Positions 193 to 16,094 of a stretch of 64,000 nucleotides of DNA are shown piece after piece (position 1 is the stretch's first letter; the number at the start of each line of letters is the position of its first letter). This DNA comes from an uncultured Bacteroidaceae bacterium. GTDB lineage: Bacteria > Bacteroidota > Bacteroidia > Bacteroidales > Bacteroidaceae. The notes beneath the pieces were generated by a model. That model ran no database searches and was not told the DNA's origin. It saw only the letters and a list, made by a program, of their open reading frames with translations. The translations under genes were made by a program, and so were the position numbers. The DNA lies in assembly GCA_905234605.1 (NCBI GenBank), contig CAJOIE010000003.1:1-64000 (forward strand), written 5' to 3'.

Positions 193-447
193 TCATGTCC
201 CATTACGTTCCATAAGGAATGCCTTTATCTCAGTATCAAAGAAATAGTATTTCTGATTGAACTTATGACACGGAATCCGCCCTCGTTCACACAGCTTACG
301 CACAGCATCCGCAGAAGGACTTCCGAGGATCCTGCGGACCTCCTCTATACCTATCACGTTCCCCGTCAGATTAATGAGGAAAGGCCGGAGCTCTTCTGCA
401 ATTTCCTTTGCCAGTTGTTTTCTTTCAGGTATGCTCAATGATTTCAT
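193..447 (-). CDS. Excisionase-like helix-turn-helix protein
   Basis: An 84-residue protein. Residues 1-30 form a charged helix; residues 33-80 (IGIEEVRRILG...AVRKLCERGRIP...YYFFDTEIKAFL) fit the HTH_17/excisionase fold: a helix-turn-helix followed by a wing that begins after 'GRIP'. Such proteins bind DNA next to tyrosine recombinases, either to direct excision or to regulate the element. It starts 3 bases after the stop of the upstream 243-aa gene, so the two are almost certainly co-transcribed and translationally linked. Whether it is a true directionality factor or a transcriptional regulator cannot be told from the sequence. Confidence 0.7.
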   Translation of the reverse strand: MKSLSIPERKQLAKEIAEELRPFLINLTGNVIGIEEVRRILGSPSADAVRKLCERGRIPCHKFNQKYYFFDTEIKAFLMERNGT

Positions 448-450
448 TAT

Positions 451-1182
451 CTATGGAGATTGTAAAGATTGTAGCACTTCGTTTTGCGGGTTTGGCATAT
501 TCTGCACCGATTCGGTAACCTTTTCCCGAGAGAACCTTCCATTGAATCTGCTTATTGCAACGGACAGGCACTTCCATTCGTTAGGATCAGAGAATGATAC
601 TGTTTTGCACGTACCCGCTTGAAGGTCGGCTACGACATACGACTTGAACGGAACGGAGGCTTCTTTCCTGGCAGAAGCAGCAGGAATAGTGAAGATGGTA
701 ACTCGCTTGTACTTTGGCTCGAACTTACCGCAAACAGCATAGCCACTTGTAGCCTCTTTTTCATCATTCCGGCCACGGATGTATGCTCTGACAATCTCGT
801 TTTCTATGTTAGAGCGTGTTATGATGGTCATACTCTCTTCTTCCTGGAGCGAATAAATCCACTCCTTCCAGTGTGCGTAGATGGAAGAGTCCTTCCAGCG
901 TTGGAAGTTGTGTCGTTGCTTGTCAATGGACAGGGTAGGATATTTCTTCTGCCTGGTTTGTGCGTCCTCTTTTGGATGCCATCGCGCCTCCGCGCCTTTC
1001 AGTCCGTTCGCCCGCTGGGCCTCGGACCTCACTGTTTGTGTTTTCCTTACCCCGGCCTGTAGCTGTTTGATATGGGATGGAGACACGACGCTAAATCTTT
1101 TTGCCAGCTCACTATTGTGATAGGAGCGGCCTCTCTGTTCAATGTACTGCCTGGTTTGTGGGCTCAGTTTTTGTTTTGGCAT
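451..1182 (-). CDS. Mobile-element protein of unknown function
   Basis: I do not recognise this 243-residue protein. It is basic and rich in Arg, Lys and Gln in its first 90 residues (RSYHNSELAKRF..V..SHIKQLQAG suggests a short helix-turn-helix-like DNA-binding segment), followed by a more mixed C-terminal half with several short beta-prone stretches. There is no signal peptide or membrane segment. It is the first gene of a probable operon with the excisionase-like and primase-like genes, downstream of a region with repeated GTCTAACAA motifs. The base composition is clearly more AT-rich than the chromosomal genes beyond 3.7 kb, as for the rest of the element. Confidence 0.55.
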   Translation of the reverse strand: MPKQKLSPQTRQYIEQRGRSYHNSELAKRFSVVSPSHIKQLQAGVRKTQTVRSEAQRANGLKGAEARWHPKEDAQTRQKKYPTLSIDKQRHNFQRWKDSSIYAHWKEWIYSLQEEESMTIITRSNIENEIVRAYIRGRNDEKEATSGYAVCGKFEPKYKRVTIFTIPAASARKEASVPFKSYVVADLQAGTCKTVSFSDPNEWKCLSVAISRFNGRFSREKVTESVQNMPNPQNEVLQSLQSP

Positions 1183-1474: not shown

Positions 1475-2599
1475 CTACTGGAAGAAAGTACTCAGGTTCT
1501 CGGCATGACGCTGCACGGTTGACTTGAGGATTTTCGCATAGTGCTGCGTGGTCTTGATGTCCTTATGGCCGAGCATCCTTGCAAGATTCTCCACCGGGAT
1601 GTCGTGGGAAAGGGAGATAGTAGCAAAAGTATGACGGGCCAGGTGGAATGTAAGGTTCTTGTGCAGATTAGCCCGGCTTTCGATAAGATGCAGAAAGTCA
1701 TTCCCTTTCTGATTGCTGATACGTGGCAACTTGTAATTGTATTTGACCAGAACATCCATTGCTGGCTTGTAGATGGGGGTGAAGAAGTTGCTACCTGTCT
1801 TCAGGCGGTTGCCGTCAATGTATACCAGATCCCCATGCTTTTCTGTCATGGTACCGAAATCGAACAGCATCATGTCACAGAATGCCAGCCCCGTGTATGC
1901 GGAGAAAATAAACAAGTCACGTACCCTGTCCTCCTTGGGAGGCAGATTCAGGGAACGTATGAGATTCAGCTCCTCTTCAGTCAACGGGCGGCGTTCCTTG
2001 TATCGGCCTCTGGGATAACTCACACTGTTATACGGGTCGCGGTCTATGATGCCACGCTCGAATACCTGACGGACGTAGCGATGTACCACCTTATGATACT
2101 TGGCCACCGTGATATCACAGCGAGTTCCGTCACGAAGCCATGTGTCGAAGTCGCGGAGATTGTTAGGGGTGAGGTCTGCAAAAGTCTGTATCCGGCCAAA
2201 CTCAATCAGACCTGTCAGAATCACTTCGCGAGAGGTGCGCGTACTTTGCTGTATCTGCTCCTTCTTGATGGCCTCAGTCATATAGTCAACGAAACTACCG
2301 TTGACATCAACCTCCTTCTTCTCCTTCTTTGTTATGCCCAATTTGCTGTTGAGGTTTGCAAGGGTCATTTCCTCGCCGAGAAACACCATCGATGAGACAA
2401 TGGCCTCATAGCGGCCAATTGCCTCGTTCAGTTCCTTGCTGTCTTGATACGCCAGCCACTCCTGAGGTGTCACCCGTTTCATCGGGATAAGCTTACGGCA
2501 TTTCAGGGAAACGTAGATAAGAATCTCCACACTTCCTGTTCCTTTCTTTTCGACTTCTTTACGCCTGTCGAACACTGCGGTTACAAATTTCTTTGCCAT
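1475..2599 (-). CDS. Tyrosine recombinase / integrase of an integrative element
   Basis: A 374-residue site-specific recombinase. The N-terminal ~100 residues are an arm-binding-like domain (Arm-DNA-bind), residues ~105-205 the SAM-like core-binding domain, and ~215-370 the catalytic domain. Visible catalytic-box residues are the lysine in NRLKTG, His and Arg in HLARHTFAT, His in MLGHKDIKTTQHYAK and the nucleophilic Tyr in the same string. The first catalytic arginine is missing: the usual TGLR box reads TGLAF. This substitution is common in the Bacteroidetes integrase group. The gene faces into the element and its promoter side is packed with repeated TTGTAGCAA sites, as expected for a recombinase adjacent to its attachment site. 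It should insert or excise the element whose remainder lies left of the window. Confidence 0.93.
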   Translation of the reverse strand: MAKKFVTAVFDRRKEVEKKGTGSVEILIYVSLKCRKLIPMKRVTPQEWLAYQDSKELNEAIGRYEAIVSSMVFLGEEMTLANLNSKLGITKKEKKEVDVNGSFVDYMTEAIKKEQIQQSTRTSREVILTGLIEFGRIQTFADLTPNNLRDFDTWLRDGTRCDITVAKYHKVVHRYVRQVFERGIIDRDPYNSVSYPRGRYKERRPLTEEELNLIRSLNLPPKEDRVRDLFIFSAYTGLAFCDMMLFDFGTMTEKHGDLVYIDGNRLKTGSNFFTPIYKPAMDVLVKYNYKLPRISNQKGNDFLHLIESRANLHKNLTFHLARHTFATISLSHDIPVENLARMLGHKDIKTTQHYAKILKSTVQRHAENLSTFFQ

Positions 2600-2708: not shown

Positions 2709-2906
2709 TTGTAGCAAGCTTGCAAACATTGTAGCAAACGCCTGATTATTGTAGCAACACATTTGATGTATGAACAGACGTAGGAACTACCTCTCATTTC
2801 CTTTTTTCCTTCAAAAACGCACTTTTAAGAGTCATCACGCTTGATTCCTCTCCTTGCCGTCAACCTTGTAGCAAATCTCACGATTTTGTAGCAAGGTTTG
2901 TAGCAA
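2709..2906. repeat. Six TTGTAGCAA direct repeats (probable integrase arm-type sites)
   Basis: Exact copies of TTGTAGCAA lie at 2709-2717, 2729-2737, 2749-2757, 2866-2874, 2886-2894 and 2898-2906, all in one orientation. The first three, and the fourth to fifth, are spaced by exactly 20 bases, about two helical turns. The geometry fits arm-type binding sites for the adjacent recombinase's N-terminal domain, in two clusters flanking a ~110-base spacer. Confidence 0.65.
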
Positions 2907-2921
2907 GCATCTTGTCCTTTT

Positions 2922-2948
2922 CAGTCCACAACAGTCCACCTCAGTCCA
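2922..2948. repeat. Three CAGTCCA repeats at 10-base spacing
   Basis: CAGTCCA occurs at 2922-2928, 2932-2938 and 2942-2948, phased exactly on the helical repeat, directly after the last TTGTAGCAA copy. This could be a second protein's site (for example the excisionase-like protein) or part of the attachment site; the sequence does not decide. Confidence 0.45.
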
Positions 2949-3026: not shown

Positions 3027-3060
3027 AAAAAGGGAACCTCGCTATAAGATTCCCTTTTTT
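3027..3060 (-). terminator. Terminator of the tRNA array
   Basis: A 10-bp stem (AAAAAGGGAA with TTCCCTTTTT) around a 13-base loop, with T runs on both strands, 9 bases beyond the last tRNA-Asp. It can end transcription of the array and also shield it from the element. Confidence 0.7.
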
Positions 3061-3068
3061 ATGTCTGG

Positions 3069-3143
3069 CGGTGCGTACGGGACTCGAACCCGTGACCCCA
3101 TGCGTGACAGGCATGTATTCTAACCAAGCTGAACTAACGCACC
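3069..3143 (-). tRNA. tRNA-Asp (GTC), copy 1
   Basis: Complete cloverleaf: acceptor GGTGCGT/ACGCACC with discriminator G, anticodon loop CTGTCAC giving anticodon GTC. No CCA is encoded. It is identical to copy 2 over a 78-base block that includes the gene (3068-3145 and 3182-3259). It is the last tRNA of the array and nearest to the integrative element. Confidence 0.96.
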
Positions 3144-3182
3144 GTATATGAAAAACCACTCCTGACGAGAGAAGTGGCTTCG

Positions 3183-3257
3183 CGGTGCGTACGGGACTCG
3201 AACCCGTGACCCCATGCGTGACAGGCATGTATTCTAACCAAGCTGAACTAACGCACC
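3183..3257 (-). tRNA. tRNA-Asp (GTC), copy 2
   Basis: Same sequence as copy 1; anticodon GTC. The spacer to copy 1 contains a short hairpin (CCACT/AGTGG) followed by five T residues on the minus strand, which resembles a weak terminator inside the array. Confidence 0.96.
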
Positions 3258-15017: not shown

Positions 15018-16094
15018 ATGAACGCACACCGATGCCTGACAGCCGCCCTCGTGGCGGTCATGACATGCACATCGCTGCCCTCCGTGGCGCAACCCACAGC
15101 GCCACGGAGAGGCATGCGTCGCACCACATTCACCACTACGGAGCCGATGGTGCACGACCCCGTCATGGCCTACGAGAACGGCGTGTACTATGTCTTCTCC
15201 ACCGGCATGGGCATACAGCAGATGCACTCACGCGACATGCAGGAATGGACCGTGGAGGCACATCCTGCCCTGCGTCCCATGGCCGCGTGGACACACGACA
15301 GCGTAGCCAGTTTCCGCAGCCACGTCTGGGCTCCCGACGTGCTGCGCTACCGCGGCCGCTGGTGGATGGCCTACTCATGCTCCACCTTCGGGCGCAACAC
15401 CTCGGCCATAGGCCTGGCATCGACAGCCTCGCTGGCTACTACCGACAGCGTGCCACCCACATGGCAGGATCATGGCTGCATCGTGGCCTCACGTGAGGGA
15501 CGCGACAACTGGAACGCCATAGACCCCGCCTTCATCGTCGACGACGAGGGCACGCCATGGCTCGCATGGGGCTCCTTCTGGGACGGCATACAGATAGCCC
15601 GCCTCGACACCACGCTGCACATTGCCCAAGGCGAGCAGCCGCGCACCATTGCCCGCCGCATGGCCTTGCGCGACACCACCTATGCCGCTCCCAACCCCAC
15701 GTCGCAGCATGCGGGGCGCAATGCCATCGAGGCACCCTTCATCTTTCGCCACGGTGGCTACTACTATCTTTTCGTGAGCCACGACTACTGTTGCCGCGGC
15801 ATCCGCAGCAACTACAAGGTGGTGGTGGGGCGTGCCACAAGCGTTGAAGGGCCATACCTCGACAGCCATGGCAAGCCCATGACCGAGGGGGGCGGCAAAC
15901 TCGTAGTGGAAGGCGACAGACAGACCTTCGAGGCCATTGGCCACTGTGCCGTCTACACCATGCCCGACCCAGCCACCGGCCAGCCTCACGACTACTTCGT
16001 GTGCCATGCCTACAGCATAGCACACGACGGTCAGGCCATACTATACCTGCGCCCCATGGAATGGACAGCAGAAGGATGGCCGGTGCTCAAGTGA
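15018..16094 (+). CDS. Secreted GH43 arabinan endo-1,5-alpha-L-arabinosidase-like enzyme
   Basis: A 358-residue protein with a signal peptide (to ~SVAQ) and one five-bladed propeller, the typical size for single-domain GH43 arabinanases. The three acidic catalytic residues are visible: Asp in MVHDPVM (~46), Asp in NAIDPAF (~172) and Glu in NAIEAPF (~237). WAPDVL and SHDYCCRGIRSNY are typical of the endo-arabinanase subgroup. It follows kbl by 19 bases and shares its transcript. Likely acts on plant arabinan in the periplasm or at the surface; exact linkage is inferred from family. Confidence 0.88.
   Translation: MNAHRCLTAALVAVMTCTSLPSVAQPTAPRRGMRRTTFTTTEPMVHDPVMAYENGVYYVFSTGMGIQQMHSRDMQEWTVEAHPALRPMAAWTHDSVASFRSHVWAPDVLRYRGRWWMAYSCSTFGRNTSAIGLASTASLATTDSVPPTWQDHGCIVASREGRDNWNAIDPAFIVDDEGTPWLAWGSFWDGIQIARLDTTLHIAQGEQPRTIARRMALRDTTYAAPNPTSQHAGRNAIEAPFIFRHGGYYYLFVSHDYCCRGIRSNYKVVVGRATSVEGPYLDSHGKPMTEGGGKLVVEGDRQTFEAIGHCAVYTMPDPATGQPHDYFVCHAYSIAHDGQAILYLRPMEWTAEGWPVLK

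Follow-up and report, generated by a model that had tools for sequence, protein, structure and literature searches.

What function could be served by six identical 9-mers lined up between a tyrosine recombinase gene and the 3′ end of tRNA-Asp? The question arises from a 64-kb window, the whole stretch of DNA analyzed here (64,000 nt of a contig from an uncultured Bacteroidaceae bacterium), in which the repeats are flanked by an integrase gene (int; 1475–2599, minus strand) and by the tRNA. With a probability of roughly 0.88, judged from sequence comparison, the repeats are P′-arm sites for the N-terminal domain (N-domain) of the neighboring integrase (Int), and the element that carries them resides in the 3′ end of tRNA-Asp.

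Six same-strand repeats next to an integrase gene

The word TTGTAGCAA was found in six exact copies, all on the plus strand (2709–2717, 2729–2737, 2749–2757, 2866–2874, 2886–2894 and 2898–2906), and nowhere else in the window, confirming the count and common orientation given in the original prediction. Its four intervals of 20 bases have to be corrected: start-to-start distances are 20, 20, 117, 20 and 12 bp, that is, three of 20 and a last one of 12. Genome-wide (2.36 Mb in 26 contigs) there are 11 copies, 6 of them in this cluster and the other five dispersed over contigs C1, C2, C3 and C20, and fewer than 0.001 copies per 200 bp are expected at the background density. Because this background is so sparse, chance is excluded for six copies in 198 bp, as had been claimed; of the even spread through the host chromosome that had been named as counter-evidence, no more was seen than the five dispersed copies.

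Organization of the region between int and tRNA-Asp

Read along the integrase strand, tRNA-Asp is followed by a hairpin (3059–3027), an inverted repeat, TGGAC units (2948–2913), a repeat triplet (2906–2866), 108 bp of intervening sequence, three sites spaced by 20 bp (2757–2709) and, finally, int. The presumed integration target, tRNA-Asp (gtc; 3066–3143, minus strand), has a rebuilt 3′ end and stands in tandem with a second tRNA-Asp copy (3182–3257, minus strand). Its last ~13 nt (CGTACGCACCGCC on the integrase strand; 3067–3079, minus strand) comprise the putative core and host junction. An imperfect inverted repeat with 19-nt arms (84%; 2939–2988) is situated between arm sites and core. In the core-proximal triplet, the integrase-strand word TTGCTACAA lies at 2906–2898, 2894–2886 and 2874–2866 (spacing 12 + 20), and the Int-proximal cluster (2709–2757, minus strand) consists of three copies at exact 20-bp spacing. 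Relative to the core, both clusters are located toward int, in what would be the P′ arm; the counterpart of this arm would lie at the element's other extremity.

Downstream of int, the element encodes a 243-aa protein without family match (451–1182, minus strand) and an 84-aa HTH_17 protein of the MerR/excisionase-like type (193–447, minus strand; PF12728, 1.2e-6), the latter a candidate recombination directionality factor. Neither of these two genes gave a match informative on whether the element is a prophage or an ICE.

The same element in other hosts

About 85,000 species genomes were scanned for TTGTAGCAA-N11-TTGTAGCAA, which yielded 20 stretches, two of them with an integrase-profile match (L045 and L044). 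No such match was present beside the other 18, nor beside isolated pairs in the family genomes; the 18 stretches, like the isolated pairs L007–L011, which also lack an integrase-profile match, were treated as chance occurrences.

L045, a MAG from red deer representing another species with a different host flank, contains the same element with the same integrase and a near-identical cluster. Aligned from position 1, it shows few differences from the window up to 3079, and divergence starts within the tRNA, where 13 nt of its 3′ end are still shared. On this comparison, the core corresponds to these final 13 nt, ending at 3079, the predicted element–host junction. The hairpin (AAAAAGGGAACCT / AGATTCCCTTTTT; 3027–3059), a probable tRNA terminator, is identical in L045 although the host flank differs, and was probably brought by the element. 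A single-base insertion in L045 at about 4044 (window 2403) shifts the integrase reading frame near residue 66 and could be an assembly error.

L044, from sheep rumen, harbors a 95% relative whose integrase is truncated; its TTGTAGCAA sites number four without and three with a single mismatch. The Int-proximal cluster of this relative (L044/L097) comprises five 20-bp units, some of them decayed, compared to three in the window; copy number in this cluster therefore varies. At 1470–1810 of L044, three tandem degenerate tRNA-Asp-like stretches lie beside an intact tRNA-Asp and are possibly remnants of repeated integration.

As the contigs of both the window and L045 stop inside the shared element, and at the same base, the far end of the window element is off the contig. 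That contigs of two species end at one base is what one would expect if assembly breaks at a mobile element present in several copies. The far end was sought in three genomes (G000, G400 and G399) using TTGTAGCAA and the tRNA-tail word. Apart from its occurrences in the two tRNA-Asp genes, the tail word is found in G000 in unrelated sequence, with neither tRNA nor motif nearby. On contig L182 of G399, the tail adjoins a terminator, and the 168 bp of possible element that are left lack the motif.

Features of the integrase protein

The 374-aa integrase (Pfam PF00589 and PF13102) comprises an N-terminal arm-binding-type domain (~1–75), a SAM-like core-binding domain (102–191) and the catalytic domain, with R265, K267, H319, R322 and H345, and Y354 as the candidate nucleophile. 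K267, H319, R322, H345 and Y354 are invariant in the family alignment, as is characteristic of a catalytic tyrosine recombinase. The first catalytic arginine is replaced (TGLA, with A239, for TGLR); R265, two residues before K267, is invariant.

No match of the window's own N-domain to the Pfam arm-binding models was obtained; that of the relative L022, aligned end to end, passes the Arm-DNA-bind_5 cut-off (PF17293, 8.8e-7). An AlphaFold model based on an eight-sequence alignment predicts an N-terminal β-β-β-α domain (block pLDDT about 76–90) with strands at 6–10, 22–31 and 34–43 and helices at 45–51 and 55–73, i.e. the fold of an arm-binding-type domain. Foldseek placed lambda Int (1z1b) among the top matches, with 367 columns aligned over nearly the full length; TM-scores are low (about 0.3), as would be expected if domain placement differs.

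By these features, Int appears to be a heterobivalent tyrosine recombinase similar to the IntCTnDOT subgroup (CTnDOT, NBU1; PMC8138268), whose members likewise come from Bacteroidetes hosts, combine SAM-like core-binding and catalytic domains, and possess an N-terminal arm-binding-type domain missed by Pfam. Part of this subgroup has the first catalytic arginine replaced, and CTnDOT Int carries a downstream substitute (PMC8138268), a pattern shared by A239 and R265 of the window Int, whose placement in the subgroup is by such features. In contrast to IntCTnDOT, the window family targets the 3′ ends of tRNA genes, and one complete relative (G281) is a prophage. The nearest annotated phage relatives, integrases of Bacteroides LoVEphage and related phages, are distant (35% identity over 97% of Int).

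Related integrases have their own words in a common arrangement

Relatives of the integrase (41–59% identity) were collected from viral contigs, the same genus and near-complete genomes of the family. In about 30 related elements, the integrase lies behind a co-oriented tRNA and is accompanied by its own repeat, mostly as triplets spaced by about 12 + 21 bp. At the MAG and complete-genome loci examined, int is located a few hundred bp downstream of the co-oriented tRNA (Asp, Lys, Arg, Thr or Glu). Most upstream regions have a repeated word of their own with the common core NN-TAC-(C/A) on the integrase strand, for instance TTGCTACAA in the window and GGTGCTACC, TGTGATACC, TTTGTTACC, GCTTCCTACC and TGTTCTACC in relatives. 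The expectation that the same 9-mer would recur beside related integrases thus held for L045 and L044, whereas the other relatives mostly share the layout and differ in the word.

When three equal 9-mers with spacings of 9–13 and 19–25 bp were searched for (threshold at least 8/9 identical columns), 27/36 upstream regions scored positive, compared to 0/492 control windows and 0/720 shuffles; some of the 36 regions are near relatives (e.g. L019 and G646), making the effective number smaller and leaving the contrast unaffected. The core-proximal triplet of the window (2866–2906) fits this conserved arrangement. A clean same-strand triplet is absent from nine of the 36, several of which have inverted arrangements; among the 36 regions, G082, G519 and L022 showed neither a clear triplet nor an inverted case.

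Distances between motifs track those between Int N-domains when the rest of the protein is controlled for (partial Mantel r 0.18, P 0.037); no such relation was seen for the remaining parts of Int with the N-domain controlled for (r –0.07, P 0.77). That motif differences follow N-domain differences is no more than suggested by this weak correlation.

TGGAC units phased at 10 bp form a second array

A second repeat, overlooked in the first reading, occupies the interval between the core and the first arm sites. Four TGGAC/AGGAC units with an exact 10-bp period (2913–2948, minus strand), identified from the sequence, a repeat search and GGA lags in the family, read TGTCCTTTTC AGTCCACAAC AGTCCACCTC AGTCCA on the plus strand and end 6 bp from the first arm site. 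The array recurs in the integrase family: within upstream regions, 63 GGA–GGA distances fall on lag 10 and 44 on lag 20, compared to 0–6 for each of the remaining lags up to 25. GGA chains with at least three members were present in 16/36 regions, 1/492 controls and 9/1,080 shuffles.

The array is probably a binding site, for either a directionality factor or a host DNA-bending/architectural protein. Short direct repeats are bound by BldC, a winged-HTH protein that assembles head to tail (PMC5859096), and the directionality factor RdfS forms filaments (PMC11963761); proteins of either sort may serve as models for the factor on the array. As a local candidate for binding the array, the HTH_17 protein may be put forward.

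Repeated sites at both ends of complete relatives

In heterobivalent systems, arm sites bound by the Int N-domain flank the core (PMC11963761). While the window shows the Int side, repeated arm-type sites can be followed to both sides in seven complete relatives of 50–75 kb (Int identity 43–49% to the window; G536 and G369 are near duplicates). Their far ends are marked by a direct repeat of 13–51 bp that contains, or is identical to, the final ~13 nt of the tRNA, and within 300 bp inside this repeat the element's own motif occurs two to five times in all seven. From element-internal densities, 0.04–0.13 copies would be expected (Poisson P 1e-3 to 1e-8). A heterobivalent integrase with P and P′ arms would be expected to show such a layout.

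The prophage nature of G281 is indicated by a tape measure protein, a head maturation protease and a primase, along with weaker portal and terminase matches. Next to int, the window element is unlike G281 in encoding the 243-aa and HTH_17 proteins.

At the far ends of G281, G536, G646 and G589 (L144, L131/L166, L172 and L169, respectively), an arm site was seen within the 20-bp spacer of a Bacteroidetes-type promoter (TTTG-N20-TAnnTTTG-like) directed at the core. In the circular form, transcription from this promoter would run toward int, which suggests that int is expressed once the element has been excised and is repressed by Int itself. Separately, the sequence past the far repeat of G281 (L144, about 15660–15790) looks like a second int-side arm in decay, which suggests that elements are stacked at a single tRNA-Lys.

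Discussion

The arm-site reading of the original prediction gained support from every comparison made, namely the element in another species, the family layout, the far ends and the Int model. We infer that the Int N-domain would contact the arm sites, while the 13-bp tRNA-tail core would be bound by the core-binding and catalytic domains. Bridging by Int would fold the ~160–370 bp that separate core and arms, giving a synaptic complex whose second arm would come from matching sites at the element's other extremity. With spacings close to one and two helical turns, the sites within a cluster would face the same side of the DNA, and a factor on the TGGAC array might set integration versus excision.

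Regulation of int offers another explanation, in which the repeats, and specifically the int-near 20-bp cluster, would be operators of a repressor or directionality factor such as the HTH_17 protein. The clusters are indeed upstream of int, the proximal one 110–160 bp from its start, and direct repeats fit MerR-like proteins oligomerizing head to tail, such as BldC (PMC5859096). However, operators are not needed at the far end of complete relatives, 50–75 kb from int, where the motif is also found, and the motif is tied to the geometry of core and tRNA and weakly tracks the Int N-domain, rendering operators of this kind improbable; Int sites could possibly double as operators.

The 20-bp direct-repeat spacing and the variable number of units (three here, five in the L044 relative) are also reminiscent of iterons, which would mark a replication origin of the excised circular element. 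No replication initiator was recognized in the element stretch on this contig, though, and the motif of relatives follows the integrase, in clusters of two to six on both sides of the recombination core, so that we regard iterons as very improbable. Scarcely any weight, finally, falls to a functionless tandem array arisen by chance or slippage: the Int-proximal cluster does look like a 20-bp tandem unit whose number differs among relatives, but the motif is rare in the genome and kept in both clusters while the sequence in between differs, and the same layout recurs with different sequences across the integrase family.

As P′-arm sites, the repeats belong to a known kind of machinery, an integrase attachment-site arm whose words vary within a kept layout. 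Compared by layout with lambda attP, the region likewise would have arm sites on both sides of the core, unlike the core in sequence, and a directionality factor expected nearby; it differs in its same-orientation triplets (~12 + ~21 bp), the 10-bp-phased TGGAC array and the tRNA target. A broader proposal, which we advance tentatively and at somewhat less than even odds, is that a large Bacteroidales family possesses an evolving arm-site code (a common GTA core, variable neighbors and kept triplet spacing) that would spare co-resident elements at the same tRNA from cross-reaction, together with a previously unrecognized TGGAC array that would seed a filament of a directionality or host factor.

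For gut Bacteroidales, the analysis delimits the attP segment on the int side for an integration system directed at tRNA genes, and provides a sequence-only way to find the arm sites of this integrase family. The TGGAC array is a concrete candidate site for a directionality or bending factor, and the more than ten integrase/arm-motif pairs constitute a natural series from which the specificity of the arm domain could be read.
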